Shown here one piece after another: positions 1,567 to 33,429 of a stretch of DNA of 34,837 nucleotides. Location of the stretch: assembly GCA_020434415.1 (NCBI GenBank), contig JAGRAW010000007.1, positions 1 through 34,837 of the forward strand. The letters run 5' to 3'. Within the stretch, counting starts at the first letter, position 1, and every line of letters begins with the position of its first letter. Below the pieces are notes generated by a model. It was not told the DNA's origin. It was given only the letters and a program-made list of their open reading frames with translations, and did not search any database. Both the position numbers and the translations under genes were made by a program. Origin of the DNA: Bdellovibrionales bacterium. GTDB lineage: Bacteria > Bdellovibrionota_C > UBA2361 > SZUA-149.

Positions 1567-3504
1567 CTAAAAATACCCCTCCGGCTTAAACAAAAGGGTT
1601 CCAAGAGGCGGAAGGTTCAGGACGAGTGAGTGCGGGCGACCGTGGGAGCCGCGTTCTTCTGCAAGCACTGAATCACCGTTCCCCTGCCCGCTGCCGCCAT
1701 AGATGTCTTTGTCGCTATTGAGCAGCTCCGTCCAGCGTCCTCCGCAGGGTACGCCGATTCGGTAGTTCGACCGGACCACAGGTGTAAAATTGCTGACGAC
1801 CAGGATTGTATCATTGTGCTTCGGAGAGCGTCTGATTGAGCTAATAACGCTTTGGGCATGATCGGTGCAGTCAATCCACTCAAAGCCTTCGGGCACGGTA
1901 TCGGCTGCGTACAGCGCAGGATGAGCACGAACCGTCAAGTTCAAGTCTCGGACCCAACGTTGCATGCCGCGATGCAAGGGGTAGTCGAGTAGATGCCAAT
2001 GTAGACCTCGAGCGTAGTTCCATTCATCCCAGTCTCCCAGCTCTGCTCCCATGAAGAGCAGTTTCTTTCCCGGATGAGCATACATATGGCCAAACAGAAG
2101 TCGGAGGTTTGCAAACTTCTGCCACGTATCTCCCGGCATCTGCGAAAGAAGCGAGCCCTTGCCGTGGACAACCTCGTCATGGGAGAGCGGCAAGATGAAG
2201 TTCTCGGTGAAAGCATACAGTAGTCCGAACGTCAGCTCAGAGTGGTGGTAGCAGCGGTGCACCGGGTCATTTCGCATGTAACGCAAAGTGTCGTTCATCC
2301 AGCCCATATTCCACTTGAAGCCGAAGCCGAGGCCGCCGGTGTACGTCGGCCGCGAAACCATGGGCCAGGCAGTCGACTCTTCTGCCGCGGTGAATGATCC
2401 GGCAGCCTCTTGGTAGGACAGCAAATTGAAGCGTCGGAGAAAGTCGATGGCTTCCAAATTTTCGCGGCCCCCGAACCGGTTCGGGATCCACTCTCCTTCT
2501 TTCCGCGAATAGTCCAAGTAGAGCATCGAGGCGACCGCATCCACGCGAAGTGCGTCGATGTGATACTCCTTGAGCCAAAAGAGCGCGCTGGAAAGCAGGA
2601 AGTTCGCTACTTCGCGGCGGCCAAAGTTAAACACATACGTACCCCAATCCGGATGCGCGCCCTGGCGTGGATCGGCGTGCTCATAGAGGTGGGTCCCATC
2701 GAAATAGGCGAGGCCGTGGGCGTCCGTCGGGAAATGCGCGGGTACCCAATCGAGAATGACGCCGATGCCGTATTCGTGGAAGCGCTCGACAAGGTGTTTG
2801 AAATCTTCCGGTGAGCCGAAGCGGCTTGTTGGCGCAAAGTAACCGGTTGTCTGGTATCCCCAGGAAGCATCATAGGGATGTTCTGTGATCGGCAGTAGCT
2901 CGACATGCGTAAAGCCCATCTCATGGATGTACGCCGGTAGCTCGTCCGCGAGTTCGCGGTAGGTCAGCCAGCGTCCGTCGCGCTGCTTCCACGAACCAAG
3001 ATGCAGTTCATAGACAAGGAGCGGTTCTTCAAGAATGTTCCGCCGTGGGCGCTGCTCCATCCATGCATGATCCGACCATTGATAGCCGAAAATATCGTGC
3101 ACGATAGAGGCCGTATTGGGACGCAGTTCCGCTGCAAACGCGTAAGGATCCGCTTTCTCGCCCTGAAAGCCGGTGTGCCGGTTCTCGATGTAGTACTTAT
3201 AGCGAGTGCCGACAGAAGCGGCATCGACGACGCCATGCCACACTCCGGCATCACTCGAGCGGAGCGGGCTAGCCTTGCGGTCCCAGCCGTTGAAGTCACC
3301 GATGACCGAGACGTACGTCGCATTCGGTGCCCATACTCCGAAGCCGGCTCCGGTGCCGGCGGCAAGGGGATGCGCCCCCAGCTTACGATAGCTCTCTAAA
3401 TGGCTTCCCTCCCCGAGGAGGTGGAGGTCGTACTCCGTCAGCAGCCCTATGCGGGGCGCTTCTCGATGTGTTCGAGAATTCCCTTGAGCGGTATGTGTAT
3501 CCAT
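1567..3504 (-). CDS. glgB: 1,4-alpha-glucan branching enzyme (GH13)
   Basis: 645 aa. It cuts alpha-1,4-glucan and re-attaches the piece in alpha-1,6 linkage, adding branches to the glucan made by GlgE upstream. A CBM48-type N-terminal domain ([20 protein letters not shown], about residues 57-75) precedes a GH13 barrel. The barrel has DALRVDAV with nucleophile D322, AEEST with acid/base Glu near 375, and [10 protein letters not shown] near 440. The protein lacks the extra N-terminal N1 module of about 100 residues found in E. coli-type GlgB (about 730 aa), so it is the short form. It is last in the operon. Its ATG at 3504 lies 58 nt inside the 3' end of treS/mak, with no clear Shine-Dalgarno sequence, so translational coupling is likely. 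No ATG start occurs between it and the conserved region. Confidence 0.96.
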
Positions 3505-6500
3505 GACGGCCTGTAGGCAATTTCATAGTCCAGTTCGTAAAACTCCTTGTCGAGCAAAAACAGGTGTAGCAGCTTGCTAAAATCCTCTGCCGCACTATTC
3601 AAGATATTCGATGCTCGACAAGTTTCTCGATACGTTGCGAGGAACTGGGCGCTTACCGCCTTTACCCAAACCGCCGAGCCGCGAGCCCCGAGTTCGGCGC
3701 TCTCATGCGTTGAAGCGTGTTCTGAGCCTCGCGAGGCCGCCCCAGCGTATCCTGCATAGCTGAAAGACCGAAGCATGCCCGCAACGTCCTTGAGCGGGGA
3801 GTGCTTTCGACGGCGCTCCTCCAATGGTAGGAGAGGTTCACCCTCAAAGTCAAAAATATAGAAATCCTCGCGCACCTTCATGACCTGTCCGAGATGGAAG
3901 TCTCCATGATAGCGAATTGCGTAGGACGCGCGCGTCTGGAGTGCGCTCGAGAGCTCATCCTCGAGCGCATGCACGCTGTCGCTTACGGCGCCACTGGACG
4001 CCAACAAGCGCTCGGTCAAGGCGCTGGGATCTTGCGTCGGCAAGCGTTCACTGCCCAGCCGACGAATCGCTGCAGTGATTCTGCCAAGAATAACTGTCGC
4101 GACATTTTGAATGTAAGCGGTGGTAATACGTTCCGGCTGGAATGCCGAGTCGTCGGTCGCTCGGGCAAGTGCAAGATGAAGTTCGGCAGTTCTCTGACCG
4201 AGCAGCGCAACTTCCGCTCCGAAGCTGCCCAGGAGGTGAACGAGTTCCGGAGGAACAGGGACATCGATATCGCGAGCGGGTAAATACGAACGACTCGCAT
4301 CCTCGGCGGCCGCGATAGCTGCCGGATCTAGCTCATTGTAGAAGCGCTCTAACTGCTCGAGTATATAGCTCCAACCGTCGCCGTGATTCTCGACAAATTC
4401 TTGTAGCACTACCAGTGTAGCGGTAGCCCCATCCGAGAAAATACCGTCGATCCAACCAGCGAGCTGAGGAATATTCCGAAAGCTCGACTGCTCACTGAGG
4501 TATCTGGTTATCTCGAGTTCGGGATTGACACCGATACGCAGATTCCGAAATGCTTTCAGTATCAGCTGTTCTCCGAAGACAAGAGAGGTGTTGCTTTGCT
4601 CCTTCGCAATTGCCCGCATGGGAGCGACAGCTCGCTGTCCCACAACCTGGTCCAACATTTCGAGCTTATGGCCGTGGACGCGCATGATGTGGCCCGCTTC
4701 GAATCGGCGTTCGTTCTGCATCGCTGCCAGAAGCAACTGACAGGATCGCCGCTCAAAAAGAGCGTCCACGAGCACACCCCCCTCGGTTGGTGTTCGAAGT
4801 ACGCCAATTATCTTCTCCGGCATGCGATCGACGAGCTCTTCTGCCGCCGATCCGAATGCCATGCGGACCGGTAAAAAATACCGCTCGCAGGTAGCATCGT
4901 CGTAGGAAGCATCCAGGAACAGAAAATAGCAGTGAGCGCCAATCTTTACGGCTTCTCGTATCTCAGCCGTAATAAGGTTTTTCGCCTTACCCTGATACCA
5001 GCGTTGTCGCGTGACATATTCCAATAGCACTTCTTGAATTTCGAGGGGGAGCTGTTGTCGTTCAAAGAGTTCCTGCTGCGAGTGGTCCAGCAGTATCGTG
5101 GCCGGTGTGAGTCCATCCGGCAGCTTTGACAGGCTCGTCGATAGCGGTTGCGGCTCAGGTTCAAGTTTGAACCACATAAACGAATGCGGGCTTAGCGTAA
5201 GAAAATAGGGAAGCTCGCCAATAGGCGGAAACTCCGTCCGGCCGATGAGTTCCATCGGAGTCCATCCGCGAAAGCGCCCCAAATCGAGCTCGGCTGGTTG
5301 CGTGAAACGAGACAGATTGCAGATGCAGAGAATAACCTCGTCCTCGAATTCGCGGAGGTAGGCGAGCACTCTACGATTTGCGGGGTGAAGAAACTCAAAT
5401 CGTCCGCGGCCAAACGCCTTATACTGGCGACGCAACGAAACAAGCCGCCGTACAAAGTTAAGCAGGGAGGAAGGGTTTCTCTCTTGCGCTTCAACGTTGA
5501 CAGCTTGAAAGCCGTAGACGGGATCCATGACCGTCGGCAAGTAGAGGCGAGCAGGGTCCGCCTTGGAGAAACCGCCATTGCGGTCATATGACCATTGCAT
5601 GGGCGTGCGCACTCCGTGGCGGTCGCCGAGATACACGTTGTCACCCATGCCGAGCTCATCCCCGTAATACATAATCGGCGAGCCGGGGAAGGAGAACAGA
5701 AGACCGGTGAGCATCTCCAGGCGACGGGTGCTGTTCTCGACTAACGGTGCGAGTCGTCGACGAATGCCCAAATTCAAGCGCATTCGGGGGTCTTGAGCGT
5801 ACTCCCGATACATGTAGTCGCGCTCATCCTCGCTCACCATTTCGAGTGTCAGCTCGTCGTGGTTTCTAAGAAACAGCCCCCATTGGCAGCTTGGCGGAAT
5901 CTCCGGAGTGCGCTCGATGATGTCGACGATCGGGTGTCGATCTTCTCGACGGAGTGCGATGAAGATGCGCGGCATCAGCGGGAAGTGAAACGCCATATGG
6001 CATTCGTCACCGTCGCCAAAGTAGGGGCGTACATCTTCAGGCCACTGATTCGCTTCCGCAAGCAACATCCGGTCGGGATAGTTTCGATCGACGAAGCTTC
6101 GTAGCTGCCGAATGACCTCGTGCGTTTCCGGAAGATTCTCGTTGTTGGTGCCTTCTCGAACACAGAGATAGGGAACCGCATCAAGTCGCACTCCGTCCAC
6201 CCCCATGTCCAGCCAGAACTTGAGGACCTTGATTACCGCCTGCACCACACGGGGGTTGTTCAGGTTCAAGTCAGGTTGGTGCGAGTAGAAGCGATGCCAG
6301 AAGTAGGCGTTCGCCACCGGGTCCCAGGTCCAGTTGGAGGATTCCGTGTCGCAAAAGATAATCCGGGTCTGTTGAAATTTCTGGTCGGTATCGCTCCAAA
6401 CATAGAAGTCCCGCTTGGGACTACCCGGTCGCGCGCGGCGAGCTGACTGAAACCACGGATGTTGGTCGGAAGTGTGGTTGATGACCAGTTCCGTAATGAC

Positions 6501-6818
6501 TCGAATGCCTCGGCGGTGCGCCTCGCGCAGAAACAGCCGAAAGTCCCTGATTGTGCCGTACTCGGGATGAATGCCGCGATAGTCGGCAATGTCGTACCCG
6601 TCATCCTTGCGAGGCGATGGATAGAACGGCAGCAGCCACAGCGCCGAGATCCCGAGCTTGGAAAGATAATCAAGTTTCTCGGTCAAGCCGATGAAATCAC
6701 CGATCCCGTCGCCGTTACTATCGTAAAACGACCGCACATGGGTTTGGTAGATTACCGCGTCTTTATACCACAGCGGATCTCGATCCATCGAGACTGAGCG
6801 ATATGGCTGAGCACTCAT
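3447..6818 (-). CDS. treS: Trehalose synthase/maltokinase fusion protein
   Basis: 1123 aa. The N-terminal half is a GH13 trehalose synthase that interconverts trehalose and maltose; the C-terminal half is a maltokinase making maltose-1-phosphate for GlgE. The TreS part starts [15 protein letters not shown], with nucleophile D213 ([10 protein letters not shown]), acid/base E255 (LLAEANQWP) and the stabilising Asp at 321 (RNHDE). From about residue 600 the aminoglycoside-phosphotransferase-like maltokinase begins ([12 protein letters not shown]). It has LILKAFRNL, the catalytic loop HGDFHLGQV at 971-979 and the metal-binding IFDFEGEP near 988-995. TreS-Pep2/Mak fusions are known in many bacteria. 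The ATG overlaps the glgE stop by 4 nt and is preceded by a strong GGAGGTGA inside the glgE end. Confidence 0.97.
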
Positions 6819-8773
6819 CGAGTCACCTCCATTATGTGCGCAGGTAGCATCGGATCGAGGCGGACGTAGTTATGAGGACCGTGCCAGAGAAATGTTTGGT
6901 CCGATAAGCGATCCCAGAGATTGAGCGAGTCGTGCCGACGAAGGCCCAATCGATCCAGAGGAACGGTTATCGTCGCTTCCCTGCTCTGGAAGGGGTGCAA
7001 GGTCACGACGATCAGAAGATGACGTTCATTGGCGGGATCGAGCTTGAGGTAGGCAAGCATCTCCGTGCTGTCTATATCGCAGAAGAGAAGATTGTTCGTG
7101 TATTGGAGAGCACGATACTCCCTTCGCAGCGCATTCACCTGCGATACGAGTGGACGAATATTGCCGGGAGCGCGCCAGTTTCGCGATCTGATCTCGTACT
7201 TCTCGGAATGGAGATACTCTTCTTTACCGGGCACCGCTTCGCTTTCGCAAAGCTCGAAGCCACTGTAGATGCCGTAATTCGAACTCAGGGTCGCTGCGAG
7301 CACCAGCCTGATCTTGAACGCGCCCGGCCCCCCGGTTTGCAGCCCGAGCGGTAGGATATCGGGCGTGTTGGTGAAGAAATTTGGGCGGAAGAACTCGGAC
7401 TGTTCTCCTTGAGTGAGTTCGGTAAGGTACTCGGCCAGCTCTTGTTTAGTCGTTCGCCAGGTAAAATACGTGTACGACTGGGTAAAGCCCAGCTTGGCGA
7501 GGTTCGCCATTCGCTTCGGTCTGGTGAATGCCTCTGAAAGAAAGATGACGCCGGGGTCGATTGCATGAACCTCGCGGATGACCCACTCCCAGAAGGAGAA
7601 TGGTTTGGTGTGCGGATTATCGACACGGAAAATTCGAACTCCTTGCTCAACCCAGTGCAGGAAAACGCTCAGTAGCTCCTGCCACAGGGCTTGCCAGTCC
7701 TCGCATTCGAAGTTCAGCGGATAGATGTCTTGGTACTTCTTCGGGGGATTCTCGGCGTAGTGTATGCTTCCGTCCGGACGACGATAGAACCAATCCGGAT
7801 GTTCTCGCACGTACGGGTGGTCAGGTGAGCACTGAAACGCGATGTCGAGAGCTACTTCAAGTCCCACTTCCCGCGCATGGGCGACAAAGCGGCGGAATGC
7901 ACCAAGAGTACCAAGCTCCGGGTGAACAGCCTTATGTCCCCCTGTGTTGCTGCCGATTGCCCACGGACTTCCGGGATCCGTGGGACCGGCCTCGAGTGAA
8001 TTGTCCTTTCCTTTGCGGTTCGACTGTCCGATGGGATGGATCGGAGGCAGGTAGATGACATCGAAACCGAGGCCAGCGATATCCGCCAGCCGAGCTTCTG
8101 CTTCTGTGAACGTTGCGCTTCGTTCCGCAGAAGTACCCGCTGAACGCGGGAACAGCTCATACCAGGCGCTGAATCGCGCGCGTGGACGGTCGACCCAAAC
8201 CATCAGTGGCGGCGATGCTTCGCTTCGGTCGTCACGGCGTTGGTAGCGCAGCATCACCTCCTGCAACCGATCGTCAAGCGCCGCAGCGACAGCTTCGCTC
8301 TCGCTGTTGTCTTGCAACTTCTCTGCTTGCACCCGTAGCCAGTCTTTCTCGTTCTGGCCCGCTCTGAGGGCTGCAGCCTCAACGAGCGCGGCTCCTTCTA
8401 ACAGTTCACTGCGAAGCGCTTGGCGTGCCGCCAGCTTCTTGGCAAGCATGTGTTTCCAGGAGCCGAAGCGATCGATCCATGCAGCGACCGTGTAGAGATA
8501 CGGCACCTCCTCGGTAATGCGGAACGTTCCCGCCCACCGGTCGTTGCCAAGAAGCAGCATCGGAACCTCCCACCAGTCCTTGTCCGACACCTTGCGGAAG
8601 CGGACCACCGCCTGGATCGCGTCGTGCCCATCAGCAAAAATGTCGGCCTGAACCGTCAGCTGCTCTCCCACGGTGCGTTTGACGGGATAGCGTCCGCCAT
8701 CAAGCTTCGGATAGACCCGCTCGACGACGACGCGATAGAGCGCGTCGTTTGCAGGTTGCCGACCGACGCTCAT
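6815..8773 (-). CDS. glgE: Alpha-1,4-glucan:maltose-1-phosphate maltosyltransferase (GH13_3)
   Basis: 652 aa, the usual GlgE length. It transfers maltosyl units from maltose-1-phosphate to the end of a linear alpha-1,4-glucan. An N-terminal beta domain ([20 protein letters not shown]) precedes the barrel. The barrel has [13 protein letters not shown] (238-249), nucleophile D385 in [11 protein letters not shown], and acid/base E414 in [10 protein letters not shown]. The combination with TreS/Mak and GlgB just downstream is the defining gene set of the GlgE pathway. It overlaps glgX upstream by 4 nt (ATGA, 8770-8773) and treS downstream by 4 nt (6815-6818), so the group is almost certainly co-transcribed. 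Confidence 0.97.
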
Positions 8774-10935
8774 GATGTCCCGTAGTATACACTATCAGCC
8801 TGCTCCACGGCTGGAACTGCCACCCGCAGGACGGCAAGCGAGCAGGGGCGAAGCTGATATGTTTCACCACTGGAAAACTCTCCGGCGACGAAGCGTTCGT
8901 CGAATGTGTCGAGTACCCGCTCCCACTTCGTAGAAATGCCTCGCAAGGGAGGCAAACGGAACGGGATAATGAGCGTGTGGTCAGCGTTGAACAGCATTAT
9001 CAGCGTCGACCCGCTGATGGTTTCCCCACGCTCGTCGACGTCGACCTGCTCACCGAAGAGGAGTACGCCGAGGCAACGCATGTAGGGTTTCTGCCAGTTT
9101 TCCTCCGAAAGCTCTTCGCCATTCGGATCGAGCCACAGAATATCCGGCGCTTCCTCGCCGCGAATCGCTTGTCCATGGAAGAATCGACGGCGTTGGAGCA
9201 CCGGTTCGGACTTACGTAGCGCTATTGCTGCTCGGGTGAAGTCGAGGAGCCTTCGGCCCTCTTCGGTGAGGCGCCAGTCGAGATAGCTGAGGTCGTTGTC
9301 CTGACAATAGGAATTATTGTTGCCGTTCTGAGAGTTGGAAAATTCGTCGCCCGCGAGCAGCATCGGTACGCCCTGCGAAACCAACAACGTCAGCAAGAAC
9401 GCGCGCTTCTTTCGCTCACGCAGCGCGATGATGCCGGGATCGCCGGTTAGGCCTTCCTCCCCGCAGTTCCAACTGATGTTGTCGTTGTGGCCGTCTCTGT
9501 TCCCTTCTTTGTTCGCTTCGTTGTGCTTCTGATTGAAGGAAACAAGATCGTGCAGGGTGAAGCCATCGTGGCAGGTAATGAAATTGATGCTGGCGTGAGG
9601 CCGTCGATTGCTCCATTCGTATAAATCACTGCTACCGCAAATGCGGGTAGCGAATTCCGAGGCGACTCCGCCGTCTCCTTTCCAGAAATGGCGCACGCTG
9701 TCGCGATACTTGCCGTTCCATTCCGACCACAACACGGGAAAGTTTCCGACTTGATAGCCGCCTTCGCCTAAATCCCACGGTTCGGCAATAAGTTTGACTC
9801 GGGAGATGACAGGGTCTTGATGAATTATCTCGAAGAACCCGCTCAGGCGATCGACTTCATGCAGCTCCCGCGCGAGTGTGCTGGCAAGGTCGAACCGAAA
9901 CCCGTCGACATGCATTTCCAGGATCCAGTAGCGCAAACTGTCCATGATAAGCTGCAGCACTCGGTGGTTGCCCATCTCAAGGGTGTTGCCGCACCCACTG
10001 TAGTCCATGTAGTAGCGGGGATTCTCGGGGCTTAGTCGATAGTAGTTGGCGTTATCGATGCCGCGGAACGAAAGCGTAGGTCCGAAGTGATTCCCCTCGG
10101 CAGTGTGGTTGTACACGACATCGAGTATGACCTCGATGTCGGCGAGATGGAGGTTTTTCACCATCGTCTTGAACTGGCTGACGACATCCATCGAGGTCTC
10201 CGCGCTGCCGTACTCGTTGTGCGGCGCGAAGAAGCTAATGGTGTTATAGCCCCAGTAATTTCTCAGTCCCCGCTCGATTAGGTGACGGTCATGAAGAAAG
10301 TGATGCACCGGAAGCAATTCGACTGCAGTAACGCCGAGCTGACGTAGATGGTCGATGACCGGTTCGGTGCCGAGCCCCAGGTAGGTGCCACGAAGCTCTT
10401 CCGGGACCTCGGGATGGCGCATGGTCAGTCCCTTCACGTGCGCCTCGTACACGATAGACTGATGTTGAGGTACATCCGGGGGGCGGTCATCGCCCCAGGT
10501 GAAAGCGGCGTCTATTACCTTTGCCAGAGGCGCGAGCGCAGCATTGTCGTGATCGTCAAACGAAAGGTCCTCTGCAGGGTCGCCGATGCGGTAGGCGAAC
10601 ATTTCGTCCCCCCAGCGAAGCGATCGACCGATCGCTTTCGCATAGGGGTCGAGCAGAATCTTGTTGGCGTTAAAGCGATGCCCTGCACGCGGCTCCCAAG
10701 GACCGTGAACCCGATAGCCGTAGAGCTGGCCCGGCAGAATGTCGGGAAGGTACACGTGCCATACTTGGTCGGTCTGCTCTCGGAGCGTGATCCGTTCGCT
10801 TTCGTGTTCCGCGTCGACAGCATCAAAGAGACAGAGTTCGACCCGTTCGGCAGTCTCGGAGTAGAGAGCAAAATTTACGCCTGCACCATCCCATGTCGCT
10901 CCTAGAGGGTATGGTTTCCCCGGCCATATTCTCAT
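8770..10935 (-). CDS. glgX: Glycogen debranching enzyme (isoamylase-type GH13)
   Basis: 721 aa. It hydrolyses alpha-1,6 branch points of glycogen-like glucan. A CBM48 domain at the N-terminus ([19 protein letters not shown]) is followed by the GH13 barrel. The barrel has [13 protein letters not shown] (269-281), nucleophile D349 ([10 protein letters not shown]), acid/base E385 ([10 protein letters not shown]) and D457 (FITCHDGFT). The [10 protein letters not shown]-type motif ([17 protein letters not shown]) is typical of GlgX/TreX. The ATG at 10935 has a clear AAGGAGAG 3 nt upstream (10939-10946 on the minus strand). It is first in the four-gene glucan operon. No treY/treZ, glgA or glgC is present in the window. 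Confidence 0.96.
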
Positions 10936-18268: not shown

Positions 18269-19129
18269 CTATGCGGCAGCTTTTTTACTTTTTGTCTTTC
18301 GGGGTGCCGAGGTTTTCTTGTCTTTAGTCTTCGACGCCCCCTTGGGCTTGGAGGCTTTCTCCCGTTGATGGACGCTCTTCTTGAGAGCATCCATCAGGTC
18401 GATCACCTGACCGCCCTCATCAGCCGAATGCTCGGGAAGTACGACGTCGTGCCCTTTCGACTTTTCGTCGATGAGATGCTCGACGCGATCCCGATACTCG
18501 TTGCGATACCGTCCCGGTTCAAACGGTGCAGCAAGAGACTCGATCAACTGGTTCGCCAGGGCTAACTCACGCTTGTCGATATCAACCTCCGGCGGCTCCA
18601 ATTCGCCGTGATCCCTGACGTCATCAGCGAAATACATAGTCTCGAGTCCCAGGATGCGACCTTCTACAACTCGAATGGCGGCGAGGTATTCGTTACTTCG
18701 CATGACCATCTTCGCGATGGCGACTCGCCCGCTATCCGCCATAGCTCGAAGCAGTAGTTGATACGGTTTTTCCCCACGGGCATCCGGGGCCAGATAGTAT
18801 GCTCGGTCGTAATACAAGGGATCTATCTCGTCCAGGCTGACGAAGTCCAAGATGTCGATGGTCCGACCGCCTTCCGGTTTTAACTTCTCCAGTTCTTCCT
18901 TTTGCACCAGCACATATTGATCGGGTGCAATCTCGACCCCCCGTGCGGTTTCGCCAAAATCATATTCCTCTCCGGTGTCGGGGCAGTACAGTTTTCGCCG
19001 AAGCCGGCATGTGCCCTCTTTATCCAGCATGTGAAACTGCACGCTCTTGCGATCGATAGCAGCGTAGAGCTGGACCGGAATGGAAACCAGTCCAAACGAA
19101 ATCACCCCTTTCCACATTGATCGCGGCAT
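18269..19129 (-). CDS. ku: Non-homologous end joining protein Ku
   Basis: 286 aa. Bacterial Ku is a homodimeric ring that binds double-strand ends and recruits LigD. The start MPRSMWKGVISFGLVSIPV and the core (YCPDTGEEYDF, LDEIDPLYYDRAYYLAPD, KPYQLLLRAM, GRVAIAKMVMRSNEYLAAIR) are characteristic. The C-terminus is a Lys-rich tail (residues about 250-286), as in many proteobacterial Ku proteins where it aids DNA contact. The start at 19129 is chosen because the family begins at this motif; an ATG at 19177 would add 16 unrelated residues. It is divergent from ligD, 116 bp away, and convergent with the ASRT gene. Confidence 0.97.
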   Translation of the reverse strand: MPRSMWKGVISFGLVSIPVQLYAAIDRKSVQFHMLDKEGTCRLRRKLYCPDTGEEYDFGETARGVEIAPDQYVLVQKEELEKLKPEGGRTIDILDFVSLDEIDPLYYDRAYYLAPDARGEKPYQLLLRAMADSGRVAIAKMVMRSNEYLAAIRVVEGRILGLETMYFADDVRDHGELEPPEVDIDKRELALANQLIESLAAPFEPGRYRNEYRDRVEHLIDEKSKGHDVVLPEHSADEGGQVIDLMDALKKSVHQREKASKPKGASKTKDKKTSAPRKTKSKKAAA

Positions 19130-19209
19130 ACGCCACAGTATGCACTCTCGGTCCCGACGCTCCATGACTCCAGTCATACGGGAGCGGCGTCGTTTTTGGC
19201 TTTCTCAAT

Positions 19210-19237
19210 TCTCAAGAGGCGGGTCTCAAGAGGTGGG
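19210..19237 (+). repeat. 14-bp tandem repeat duplicating the ligD Shine-Dalgarno region
   Basis: TCTCAAGAGGCGGG (19210-19223) is followed directly by TCTCAAGAGGTGGG (19224-19237), one mismatch. The second copy supplies the AGGTGG that serves the ligD GTG start at 19246. The repeat lies in the 116-bp ku-ligD divergent region, which must also hold both promoters. Confidence 0.8.
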
Positions 19238-19245
19238 CACTGAAA

Positions 19246-21126
19246 GTGAATGCACTAGAACCATTTTGTGCTCCTCAACTGGCGCAACTCGCATCGAGCG
19301 TGCCGACCGGGAGCGATTGGCTGTACGAAATCAAGCTGGATGGCTACCGTCTACTTGCGCGTATCGACTCAGGCGACGTGCACCTGCTGACTCGGAATGG
19401 CCACGACTGGTCTGATCGCTTTCCTGAAATCTGTGCCGACCTCGAAAGGCTGCCCGTGAGGACGGCGCTGTTGGATGGGGAAGCTGTGGTAGTGCTTCCG
19501 GATGGAAGAAGCGATTTTCAGGAGCTTCAGCATCGACTCGGTAGAAGAGGCGGGCGGGCTGCTGTAGGCGTGCAGTATCACGTCTTTGATCTCATACATC
19601 TGGATGGTGAGGACTTGAGAGAACACCCGCTCGAGCGCCGCAAGGAGCGCCTCATCGAGATTCTTGGCGAGGGGCAGTGGCAGACCGTGCGAATCTGCGA
19701 CTACTTTATTGGCGATGGAGCCCTCTTCTTCGAAGAAAGTTGTCGTCGGGGCTTGGAAGGCGTGATCGCGAAGCGACGTTCAGCCCCATACCGCTCGGTA
19801 CGCTCTCGCGACTGGCAGAAGATCAAGTGTGGGCGGAGGCAGGAATTCGTGGTCGGGGGTCTGACTCGGCTCAAGGGGCGGGACGCGGTGGGGGCGCTTC
19901 TATTGGGGGTGTACCATGAGGGGCACCTACTGTTTTGCGGTAAGGTCGGTACGGGATTCTCGGACAGAGCGAGGCGGGAGCTTTATCTGGAACTCATACC
20001 CCACCAATGCGCAGCTTCACCTTTTCGCTCCATCCCGCGGGAGCGGCAGGTCGTGTGGCTACATCCGCAGGCGGTAGCGGAGGTGAGCTTCACCCAATGG
20101 ACCAATGATCACCGTCTTCGGCACCCTGTATTTCACGGACTTCGTAGCGATAAGGCTGCAAACACAATTGTTAGAGAGTCACCGATGAAGCAGTCGAAAC
20201 CAAAACGAGGGAAGGCTAGAACAAGCAGGCGTCATGAAGTAAGCGATAGTAGCGTTCGATTCACCCATCCGGATCGTGTCGTCTTTCCCGAACAGGGCCT
20301 GACGAAGCTTGCGCTCGCCGAATATTACGAGGCGGTTGCCGATCGCATTCTCACCCACGATAGCCATCGCCCTCTTACGCTCGTACGGTGCCCGGCGGGA
20401 CGAGCAGGGAAGTGTTTCTTTCAGAAGCACGCGACAGGTTCAATGCCGGATGCACTGCCGCGCGCCGCGGTTTCTGAAGACTTGAAGGAAGAGCCGTACC
20501 TTTATCTGGAAAGTGAAGCGCATCTACTGTGGTTGGTGCAGCTCAATGTGCTCGAGATTCACGTAGGGAACTCTCGAATTGAACAGTTAGAGCAACCTGA
20601 CCGTATAGTGATCGATTTGGATCCGGATCCCGCGGTGCCGTCGTCAGCCGTCGTGTCGGCCGCTTTTCTTGTCAAAGAAGCGATGGAGCACCTGGGGCTT
20701 GTGCCATTTGTCCGGATGACAGGGGGTAAGGGGCTCCATGTGGTCACGCCCATTCGGCCGAAGCTCGGTTGGGATGAAGTGAAAGCGTTCTCTGCTGCAT
20801 TGAGCAAAGTCGTGGCAGCAGCGCAACCCGATCGGTTCGTGACGGTGATGACAAAGAAGAAGCGCAGCGGAAAGATTTTTATCGACTACTTGAGGAACGG
20901 CAGGGGAGCGACCGCTATCGCGGGCTATTCGACTCGCGCACGAGCCGGCGCGCCGGTTGCGGTCCCGTTGCGGTGGGATGAAGTCGCCTCTCGCTTCGGT
21001 CGCACAGCTTATACGGTAGCGAATGTTCCGCGGCGTCTCGCCTCGTTGAAAGAAGACCCTTGGGAAGGCTACTTCGACAGCGAGAGGCCGATCACCCGTC
21101 AGATGATACGAGCAGTGGGGATGTGA
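19246..21126 (+). CDS. ligD: ATP-dependent DNA ligase LigD, ligase plus polymerase domains
   Basis: 626 aa. It seals and fills in double-strand breaks held by Ku. The ligase domain comes first: motif I EIKLDGYR with the adenylated Lys K30, LLDGEAVV near 76-82, GLEGVIAKR at 169-177, and motif V DWQKIK near 189-194. After a basic linker (about 313-335) comes the archaeo-eukaryotic primase-type polymerase domain: FTHPDRVVFP, FFQKHATG, metal-binding VIDLDPD (D457, D459), TGGKGLHVV and FIDYLRNGRGATA. There is no N-terminal or C-terminal phosphoesterase domain, unlike Pseudomonas-type PE-LIG-POL proteins of about 840 aa. Start is GTG with AGGTGG 9 nt upstream. Confidence 0.96.
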   Translation: MNALEPFCAPQLAQLASSVPTGSDWLYEIKLDGYRLLARIDSGDVHLLTRNGHDWSDRFPEICADLERLPVRTALLDGEAVVVLPDGRSDFQELQHRLGRRGGRAAVGVQYHVFDLIHLDGEDLREHPLERRKERLIEILGEGQWQTVRICDYFIGDGALFFEESCRRGLEGVIAKRRSAPYRSVRSRDWQKIKCGRRQEFVVGGLTRLKGRDAVGALLLGVYHEGHLLFCGKVGTGFSDRARRELYLELIPHQCAASPFRSIPRERQVVWLHPQAVAEVSFTQWTNDHRLRHPVFHGLRSDKAANTIVRESPMKQSKPKRGKARTSRRHEVSDSSVRFTHPDRVVFPEQGLTKLALAEYYEAVADRILTHDSHRPLTLVRCPAGRAGKCFFQKHATGSMPDALPRAAVSEDLKEEPYLYLESEAHLLWLVQLNVLEIHVGNSRIEQLEQPDRIVIDLDPDPAVPSSAVVSAAFLVKEAMEHLGLVPFVRMTGGKGLHVVTPIRPKLGWDEVKAFSAALSKVVAAAQPDRFVTVMTKKKRSGKIFIDYLRNGRGATAIAGYSTRARAGAPVAVPLRWDEVASRFGRTAYTVANVPRRLASLKEDPWEGYFDSERPITRQMIRAVGM

Positions 21127-30106: not shown

Positions 30107-30189
30107 GAAAATAAAATGGTGACAGAGACGAATATTCCTATTTGCCGGAAGCAAATAGGAATATTCGTCTCTGTCACCATTTTATTTTC
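30107..30189. repeat. Perfect inverted repeat, 39-bp arms and 5-nt loop (REP/MITE-like)
   Basis: Arms 30107-30145 and 30151-30189 are perfectly complementary around the loop CGGAA. The core of each arm contains GGTGACAGAGACGAATATTCC-type sequence, cut here to under 20 bases: GTGACAGAGACGAATATT. A 13-bp piece (AATAAAATGGTGA) also occurs as a direct repeat at 30096-30108 and 30110-30122. I associate such sequences with REP-type palindromes mobilised by RAYT (IS200/Y1-type) transposases. None is in the window, so the link is inference. It sits between divergent genes, 45 nt upstream of the Rieske-like ATG. Confidence 0.9.
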
Positions 30190-30233
30190 CGAGCGCACAT
30201 TTACCAAAAAGTGTGTGATAACAGGGGATAGCA

Positions 30234-30851
30234 ATGTGCAAGGAACACCAGAAGCAGCCTCCCGCCGTAAGTCGACGGCGATTTCTTCACGCGGCCGGCG
30301 TGGGGGTCGGGGTGCTTTTTTTGCTGCCCGGTTGCGAACGCCACCGCTATATTCGACCGGGGGGGGAGCTTGATTTGGGCGCGGTCGAGGATTTGCTCTA
30401 TTCAAGCGTCCATATTCGCAGTAAGGCGATCCTGCTGTTCCGCGATGCTGACGGATGGGCAGCGCTGAGTACGCGATGTACTTACCGTGGCTGTGATTTG
30501 ACCCATCAGGAGCCTGTGCTGCTCTGTCCTTGCTGTCGGACCCGGTATTCGTTGGACGGCATTCCACATCAGGGCTGGCCGGCGACGAGGCCTCTGCCAT
30601 GGGTCGATTTGGCGTATCGCGAGGGCCATATCTGGGCCAATCCGGGAACGGTACGTCCACCAGGATGGCGCTTCTCGACCCCGGAGATCGAAGAAGCGGT
30701 CCGAAAACTGCGGCTTCGTGTTCGTGAGGAAAAGCTCCGCGACGAGGTCGCGATTCCGAGCGGTCTCAAAGGCACCGGTGACGGAGAAGCAGGGACAATG
30801 TTTCTCGAAGAGGACCCAAATCTCATCCACGAACTCAAGATGATCAAGTAA
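30234..30851 (+). CDS. Tat-exported Rieske-like protein with substituted cluster ligands
   Basis: 205 aa. The N-terminus has a twin-arginine motif SRRRFL (13-18), a hydrophobic stretch and a lipobox LLPGC (C34), so it is probably exported folded and lipid-anchored. Residues 82-101 read CTYRGC and, after a spacer, CPCC, where a Rieske domain has CTHxGC and CPCH. The two Cys ligands (C82, C98) and the disulfide Cys (C87, C100) are kept, but the His ligands are Tyr84 and Cys101. It therefore cannot bind a standard 2Cys-2His [2Fe-2S] cluster; it may bind another metal site or none. The C-terminal 80 residues are helical and charged. The ATG has AGGGG 8 nt upstream. No cytochrome b or dioxygenase partner is adjacent. 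Confidence 0.8.
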   Translation: MCKEHQKQPPAVSRRRFLHAAGVGVGVLFLLPGCERHRYIRPGGELDLGAVEDLLYSSVHIRSKAILLFRDADGWAALSTRCTYRGCDLTHQEPVLLCPCCRTRYSLDGIPHQGWPATRPLPWVDLAYREGHIWANPGTVRPPGWRFSTPEIEEAVRKLRLRVREEKLRDEVAIPSGLKGTGDGEAGTMFLEEDPNLIHELKMIK

Positions 30852-31882: not shown

Positions 31883-32719
31883 CTACGAGCCCAGCTCGGC
31901 ATCTGCTAGCTGGCGCGCCTTTTCGGATTTCTTCTTCTTGGAATGAGCTGCCGGAAGCTCAGGTTCCGGAGCGGGTTTCGCCGGCTCTGTCCACGCTCCT
32001 TCTTCCTCGTGATAACGAGGAGCGGGCGCACCATAGCCGTAACCGGGCCAGTAATAGGGCACCGGGTATTGGCTGTAGCCCAAGTGTCGAACGGGGATGC
32101 GCTCCAGGGCAGTGGGAAACGAACCGGTTCTAAGCAAGCGGGTGATCTCATCGGTCTTGGTCATCTCGACGCTACCTGCGGAGATGACCAAGGAGGATCT
32201 CGGATCAAGCACTCTGGTGTTGAGGTAGACGCGCACCGGTGACACGGTATAGGTGCCGACGACGAGCGCCGAGATATCCTGCATCCCCCGCAGGGTTCGG
32301 GTATCTCGCGACAGGCCGAATTCCCCCTTATCGAACATTATCTGCATTGCATCGGAAGCGCGGACTTCGACGACGTTGTACCCACGCATCGCCAGTTCGC
32401 TCATTAATTGTTCGGAAAGCACTCGGCCAAAGCTCGAACTTTGGTAAAGATTGTCGATGTCTACGAAGGTAGTTACCGCGATCGGGCCGCTAATGCTGCC
32501 CTTGAAATATGCGTGAATCTGGTCCGCTAGATAACTCGTCTTAAATCTACCAACAGACTGATTCTCGGGGTCTGAAATCGGTATTGCCCAGTACGCGGGC
32601 AAGTCGTGATAGCGCTTACTGCAGCCGCTGAAAGCTCCGAAGAGTAAGATAGAGACGACGAATGAAACGCCCCACAACCACCAGCTTTTGGCCGCTTCGC
32701 TGGAACATCTTGTCTTCAT
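31883..32719 (-). CDS. FlgO-family outer-membrane lipoprotein
   Basis: About 278 aa from the ATG at 32719 (a GTG at 32728 is the alternative). A signal peptide ends at LLFGAFSGC. The core (ADQIHAYFKG, PIAVTTFVDIDNLYQSSSFG, LSEQLMSELAMRGYNVVEVR, ALVVGTYTVSPVRVYLNTRV) matches the FlgO domain, first described for a Vibrio outer-membrane protein needed for motility. No flagellar gene is in the window, so a flagellar role is not supported here. The tail (about 215-278) is Tyr/Pro/Lys-rich. Its 5' end overlaps the next gene on the opposite strand by 58 nt. Confidence 0.88.
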   Translation of the reverse strand: MKTRCSSEAAKSWWLWGVSFVVSILLFGAFSGCSKRYHDLPAYWAIPISDPENQSVGRFKTSYLADQIHAYFKGSISGPIAVTTFVDIDNLYQSSSFGRVLSEQLMSELAMRGYNVVEVRASDAMQIMFDKGEFGLSRDTRTLRGMQDISALVVGTYTVSPVRVYLNTRVLDPRSSLVISAGSVEMTKTDEITRLLRTGSFPTALERIPVRHLGYSQYPVPYYWPGYGYGAPAPRYHEEEGAWTEPAKPAPEPELPAAHSKKKKSEKARQLADAELGS

Positions 32720-33429
32720 TGCAAACACTCGCTTTGTCGTCGCTGCTCGTCACGAGCGGCTGTAGTTTCACCGGGTTCCCTAAAAAGACCGATGGATGCA
32801 AGAGTCGGACCTACGTGAACGCTGGACTTTTGGACTACCTAAGTAATCGATACGATTCAGAACAGCTTCCTCGCCTGGCGATCCTGCCGTTCAATGTGCC
32901 GGAAAATTTTGCTCCTCCGGGGAACGAATCGCACCACTACGGGCGAGACCTCGCCCAGCTCTTTCATCGCGAATTGCTGAAAGCTTCAGATTTCGGAATT
33001 ATCGAAGTCTTCAATCGCGACCGATGGCCCGGCAAAAGGGCGGAATTCAATGCGGGCAACTACCAGGCGATGCAACTCGCCCGTAACGCCGGGTATGATT
33101 TCGTGCTGGTCGGCTATCTCGAGGACATCATCAACGAGACGGATCTGAGCGTCCTGACAAGGGTGATCGACACTTCCAACGGCGTGACTGTGTGGTATGG
33201 GCGGACCGTGGTCTACTCCAATGACCGTCCGCTGCGACGCACGCTGGCGGAGTATACCTTCGGGTTCGTTGAAGACCGACCGGATCTTTTCGGCTTTCCG
33301 GAGCGCGCAGAGCGGATGGCGCGTTGCACCGTTGAGCACATTCTGAAAGGGGAGGTAATTCAAGAGGAACAGCCGACACGGCTCGGCCAGTTCGGTCTTC
33401 AGCCGCCTGTGTCGGAGCAACTCGAGTAG
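32662..33429 (+). CDS. Lipoprotein, possible CsgG/TolB-N-like fold, function unknown
   Basis: 255 aa. The N-terminus has Arg residues at 3 and 13, a hydrophobic stretch and LLVTSGC (C34), a lipobox-like site. The body starts LPRLAILPFNVPENFAPPG and continues RDLAQLFHRELLKASDFGIIEV and GYDFVLVGYLEDIIN. This order resembles the CsgG/TolB-N/FlgO-like lipoproteins of the opposite gene, but the family is not recognised firmly. Later starts inside the signal region (TTG codons) are possible. The 5' end overlaps the FlgO-family gene antiparallel; it may be a functional partner. Confidence 0.72.
   Translation: MKRPTTTSFWPLRWNILSSLQTLALSSLLVTSGCSFTGFPKKTDGCKSRTYVNAGLLDYLSNRYDSEQLPRLAILPFNVPENFAPPGNESHHYGRDLAQLFHRELLKASDFGIIEVFNRDRWPGKRAEFNAGNYQAMQLARNAGYDFVLVGYLEDIINETDLSVLTRVIDTSNGVTVWYGRTVVYSNDRPLRRTLAEYTFGFVEDRPDLFGFPERAERMARCTVEHILKGEVIQEEQPTRLGQFGLQPPVSEQLE

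Follow-up and report, generated by a model that had tools for sequence, protein, structure and literature searches.

A gene at positions 30234-30851 on the forward strand of the window, the 34,837-nucleotide stretch of DNA analysed here, encodes a 205-amino-acid Rieske-like lipoprotein that cannot carry a [2Fe-2S] cluster in the usual Rieske way. On the basis of its profile match and modelled fold, the protein belongs to the Rieske superfamily, but both histidine ligands are missing, and sequence alignment indicates that relatives across the order share this loss. The Cys2His2 ligand set serves as the signature of the Rieske family; judged by a profile match alone, the product would be mislabelled as a [2Fe-2S] Rieske protein. 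Our best explanation, which we judge to have about an even chance of being correct, is that the gene encodes a Rieske-fold envelope lipoprotein with a three-cysteine metal or Fe-S site, which would be exported by the Tat pathway after loading, and that this site was lost in some lineages.

The open reading frame starts with an ATG at 30234, downstream of a ribosome-binding-like AGGGGA (30223-30228, forward strand), and its stop codon ends at 30851. The N-terminus begins with M-C-K and contains the motif S13-R-R-R-F-L, a hydrophobic stretch and the lipobox L31-P-G-C34 (residues 1-34; 30234-30335, forward strand). The TAT_signal_seq model (NCBIfam TIGR01409) scores 17.5 bits, above its cut-off of 16.7. 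With a twin-arginine motif, an h-region and a lipobox in the protein and TatC encoded in the genome, the product is predicted to be a Tat-exported lipoprotein, in agreement with the Tat motif and lipobox that had been read in an earlier note on this DNA. The residue directly after the lipobox cysteine (C34) is Glu. If the +2 rule of Escherichia coli applies in this phylum, Glu after the lipidated cysteine would not lead to retention in the inner membrane.

The two ligand loops were read from the codons and from the alignment. Loop 1 (C82-T-Y84-R-G-C87; 30477-30494, forward strand) contains Tyr in place of the first Rieske histidine, and loop 2 (C98-P-C100-C101; 30525-30536, forward strand) contains Cys in place of the second. 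Relative to the Rieske pattern C-x-H-x-x-C ... C-x-C-H, all four cysteines are thus kept and both histidines are missing. The codons of the site are unambiguous (TGT for C82, C87, C98 and C101, TGC for C100 and TAC for Y84), and re-reading of the DNA yielded no His at position 84 or 101. The absence of a canonical Rieske site, which was the central claim of the earlier note, is therefore present in the DNA itself.

The Pfam Rieske model (PF00355) matches residues 57-121 (E 2.2e-5; 24.7 bits against a gathering score of 20.3), and the protein scores far under the cut-offs of the curated NCBIfam Rieske equivalogs, including TIGR01416 for the bc1/b6f Rieske subunit (17.9 bits versus 97.4). In the AlphaFold2 model (14 orthologues), the mean pLDDT is 82 and exceeds 90 across most of the Rieske-fold domain (residues 45-141; 30366-30656, forward strand). 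The model and the alignment also place a C-terminal helix (residues 150-165; 30681-30728, forward strand) within an order-specific C-terminal extension. The top Foldseek match in the PDB is 9rk4_A, the Rieske protein kuste4569 (E 8.5e-7, target-normalised TM 0.80, rmsd 2.1 A); Rieske ferredoxins, b6f Rieske subunits and arsenite oxidase small subunits rank next. The modelling that the earlier note had proposed thus points to a Rieske fold. However, the protein is not a canonical Rieske protein, because the ligand set C-x-H ... C-x-x-H is absent from it (Tyr84, Cys101), and none of the 14 orthologues, itself included, has His at either site. Searches of a viral fold library and a plasmid search by protein gave no match.

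Orthologues were found in 14 of the 15 genomes examined in the order, usually as a single copy; the remaining genome is 77% complete. Their matches have E-values of about 1e-60 or better, far from that of the next match (about 1e-22). A narrow profile search of genome contigs detected five loci, every one of which is in the same family. The overall architecture is kept in the orthologues of the 13 other genomes. We looked for His in these close relatives and found none at either position: residue 84 is Tyr in eight of the 14 orthologues, Arg in three, and Lys, Ile and Val in one each, and residue 101 is Cys in 10 and Ser in four. Thus, the conservation that the earlier note had suggested examining does not hold for Tyr84, and the variability of this residue indicates that it is not an essential ligand. 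For Cys101, conservation is seen only together with C82 and C98. G86, C87, D88 and C100 are invariant, so that the second cysteine pair, a putative disulfide that the note had described as fold-stabilising, is retained throughout. Both histidines are present in all of the 30 Rieske matches sampled from other phyla, 29 of which exhibit the full canonical pattern; the other one (L111) lacks the disulfide cysteines.

The triad C82/C98/C101 is complete in 10 of the 14 orthologues. In the four triad-less proteins (L005, L007, L012 and L014), both C82 and C101 are replaced by Ser, and C98 is replaced by Asp in all except L012. Judging from this distribution, the five cysteines, which had been regarded as one candidate metal-binding set, are all present but fall into two sets, a three-cysteine unit (C82/C98/C101) and the pair C87/C100. 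The triad-less four share every alignment column kept in at least eight of the ten triad proteins, apart from R14, R15, C82, C98 and C101. The twin arginine is present in nine of the ten triad proteins and in none of the triad-less proteins (Fisher p 0.005, uncorrected for kinship). By sequence comparison, the triad cysteines and the Tat signal, which marks the route for already-folded proteins, have therefore been gained or lost together, with the exception of L006, which contains the triad and no recognisable Tat motif. L012 and L014 are also devoid of a lipobox and appear to be anchored through a hydrophobic segment. Because TatC is still encoded in the genomes of all four triad-less proteins, the loss concerns the Tat signal of this protein, with the pathway itself still in place in the cell.

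The number of independent events behind this association is small. The gene tree requires two changes of triad state, but an AU test did not reject a single clade for the four triad-less proteins (p 0.214), which may thus descend from one loss; given this kinship, the link between the triad and the Tat signal stands on one or two events. The gene tree places L012, which retains C98, as the fully supported sister of L014, and the replacement of C98 by Asp therefore very probably arose twice. The TatC tree is dominated by long branches and is uninformative on one versus two losses. In this tree, the TatC sequences L125 and L129 are extremely diverged (branch lengths of 10 and 4.8, respectively); they are encoded in G005 and G009, the genomes with membrane-anchored, triad-less copies.

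A sister clade of 11 members (L015, L017-L023, L028, L029 and L057) was identified in the same class. It can be aligned with the order family along the entire domain (hhalign probability 99.7%, E 1.8e-25, using eight of the 11 members), shares with it the start RPxGxxxLG, and is modelled with a Rieske fold (mean pLDDT 89) whose top PDB match is again 9rk4. Among the six site positions, only C82 remains Cys or His in this clade, and it is kept in all 11 members; L019 and L017, for example, retain this lone cysteine and have lost all other Rieske cysteines. Position 84 is Tyr in most members and Lys or Ser in three, which suggests that the loss of the first histidine may predate the split between the two clades. 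Canonical Tat Rieske proteins (L016 and L026) were also found in this class, and a canonical copy (L045) coexists with a His-less orthologue (L002) in one genome of the window's family. Like the window protein, L016 and L026 have a Rieske domain and are apparent Tat lipoproteins. Unlike it, L016, L026 and L045 carry CTHQxC...CPCH with both histidines. In the gene tree, the canonical proteins, the order family and the sister clade form separate clades with good support.

These observations can be combined into a mechanism in which the two ligand loops of the Rieske fold have been rebuilt as a three-cysteine site. C87 and C100 would form the usual Rieske disulfide and brace the loops, and C82 and C98, the ancestral Rieske cysteine ligands, would hold an Fe-S or other metal centre together with C101, which replaces the second histidine. 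Such a centre would most likely be a low-potential [2Fe-2S] cluster held by three cysteines, with residue 84 (Tyr, Arg or Lys in the ten triad-bearing orthologues) contributing a weak or variable fourth ligand, and it might serve in electron transfer. It would be inserted in the cytoplasm, after which the folded protein would leave via Tat and be lipidated at C34. The site would have disappeared along with the Tat motif in certain lineages, where the domain would persist as a cofactor-free anchored protein. There are partial precedents for this chemistry. The substitution H64C, equivalent to C101, produced a low-potential 3Cys/1His [2Fe-2S] cluster in the archaeal Rieske ferredoxin (ARF), but the cluster did not assemble when the first histidine was replaced (H44C) (PMC2946596). 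Biotin synthase uses three Cys and a single Arg as the ligands of a [2Fe-2S] cluster (PMC11138216). These analogies make a three-cysteine site chemically plausible, and the lack of conservation of residue 84 among the 14 orthologues argues against the proposed mechanism. We found no tested precedent for the exact ligand set in a Rieske fold, and the open-access literature searched, with incomplete coverage, contained engineered three-cysteine Rieske sites but no natural His-less one. The full proposal, namely, that this is a natural His-less Rieske-fold family with a Cys3-ligated [2Fe-2S] cluster, acting as an exported low-potential centre, and with lineages in which the Tat signal is being lost along with the cluster, is put forward as a tentative one that we consider more likely to be wrong than right.

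The absence of the triad from four orthologues, and the retention of a Rieske fold in a sister clade without any of the site cysteines except C82, are also what would be expected of a cofactor-free lipoprotein, in which the domain serves only as a scaffold or binding module, C87-C100 is structural, and C82, C98 and C101 are drifting remnants. Purifying selection seems to act on both kinds of protein (dN of about 0.19-0.20 in close pairs, with dS computable in one close pair only, at 2.5), and the plant and algal protein PSB33/TEF5 provides a working example of a ligand-free Rieske-like domain (PMC12164590). However, two base changes separate C101 from the canonical His, 10 of the 14 orthologues across several families of the order retain this cysteine, and drift does not predict the joint retention of exactly three cysteines and the Tat motif. 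A purely structural role, one of the options that the earlier note had listed, thus fits the triad-less relatives and does not obviously fit the triad-bearing ones; we regard the cofactor-free reading as a serious but unlikely explanation. The two base changes between C101 and His also mean that a single sequencing error cannot explain this residue. Although the source is a fragmented metagenome-assembled genome (677 contigs, about 80% complete), in which sequencing or assembly might have altered a normal Rieske gene, the orthologues of 13 other genomes likewise lack both histidines; these His-less homologues refute the error explanation, to which we assign a negligible probability.

Two further explanations accept the triad as functional. 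A set of three cysteines with a variable fourth residue would suit a structural zinc site or a mononuclear iron site formed by C82, C98, C101 and a fourth ligand, and the conversion of ARF into a rubredoxin-like Fe(Cys)4 protein by three substitutions indicates that the loops tolerate a mononuclear metal (PMC2946596). That design, however, required a fourth Cys beside the first His position, where the window protein has none. Because this possibility is inseparable from [2Fe-2S] by sequence and is a sub-case of the three-cysteine metal site, the probability that we give it, which is low, overlaps with that of our preferred reading. The CxxC spacing in C98-P-C100-C101, together with the fact that C82 is the sole site cysteine of the sister clade, would also be compatible with a Rieske scaffold that carries a site for dithiol/disulfide redox chemistry or thiol relay in the periplasm. 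A CxxC motif in which a middle residue is a disulfide cysteine would be unusual, though; the coupling to Tat better suits a cofactor-containing protein folded in the cytoplasm than a Sec-compatible thiol site, and none of the neighbours examined was recognised as a Dsb-like or thioredoxin-fold gene. We therefore consider thiol chemistry quite improbable.

The conserved gene order at the locus is thiolase, ThrRS (assigned from its translation), an ABC_tran_2 permease, the Rieske-like gene, a FlgO-type lipoprotein pair and FabD, and the permease is often divergent from the Rieske-like gene across the order. The earlier note had reported no adjacent partner gene. This is correct in that no redox partner was recognised among the neighbours examined, yet the neighbourhood itself is conserved within the order. 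Because no neighbour varies in step with the triad, we do not claim any functional partner. TonB receptor-like genes adjoin L008, L012 and L014, but these loci include both triad states and this lead was dropped. No match to cytochrome b (PF00033) was obtained in the window's genome or in 13 of the 15 order genomes, which are incomplete, and no cytochrome b gene was recognised in the neighbourhoods of the orthologues; the two genomes with a PF00033 match contain it in frames of 679 and 703 amino acids. A role in a bc1 complex is therefore judged unlikely.

Several other features of the window were observed. Directly upstream of the Rieske-like gene, positions 30108-30190 form a long near-perfect inverted repeat, which gave 48 two-strand matches spread over roughly two dozen sites of this genome; some copies are halved and about 70-110 bp apart, suggesting a REP/MITE-like palindromic element. 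At 31883-33429, a FlgO-type lipoprotein gene (reverse strand) overlaps a divergent lipoprotein-like gene (forward strand), and this pair is located near FabD in several genomes of the order. As read from the translations, a compact alpha-glucan/trehalose cluster at 1567-10935 (reverse strand) encodes GlgB, a long TreS-maltokinase-like fusion, and GlgE-like and GlgX-like proteins, and a divergent Ku-like (reverse strand) and LigD-like (forward strand) pair for bacterial end-joining repair is present at 18269-21126.

The significance of the family lies in the natural series that it provides on one fold in related genomes, comprising proteins with both histidines, with three cysteines and no histidine, with the disulfide cysteines only, and with almost no cysteines, alongside which the export route varies. 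This series makes it possible to test which natural ligand sets a Rieske scaffold can support, and whether proteins keep their Tat targeting only while a cofactor needs to be loaded before export.

Among known systems, the window protein shares with the bc1/b6f-type Rieske protein kuste4569 (PDB 9rk4) the fold, the two cysteine ligands and the two disulfide cysteines, and by alignment its Thr103 and Tyr105 occupy the Ser/Tyr positions that have a tuning role in high-potential Rieske proteins (PMC12954380). However, bc1/b6f-type proteins have both histidine ligands, a membrane helix and a cytochrome b partner, and the window protein has a predicted lipid anchor in place of the helix. A parallel in ligand terms is engineered ARF, in which the second-loop histidine was replaced by Cys in H64C and a rubredoxin-like site was obtained in H44I/K45C/H64C (PMC2946596). 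In contrast to these, the window protein is natural and predicted to be exported, it possesses a disulfide cysteine pair that ARF lacks, and it has no histidine ligand left, whereas the H64C cluster retained His44. PSB33/LIL8/TEF5 resembles the window family, at the level of the fold alone, in that a membrane-anchored Rieske fold was kept after the loss of cluster ligands (PMC12164590). PSB33/TEF5 proteins are devoid of all metal-binding residues and serve photosystem II, whereas most members of the window family have kept three cysteines.
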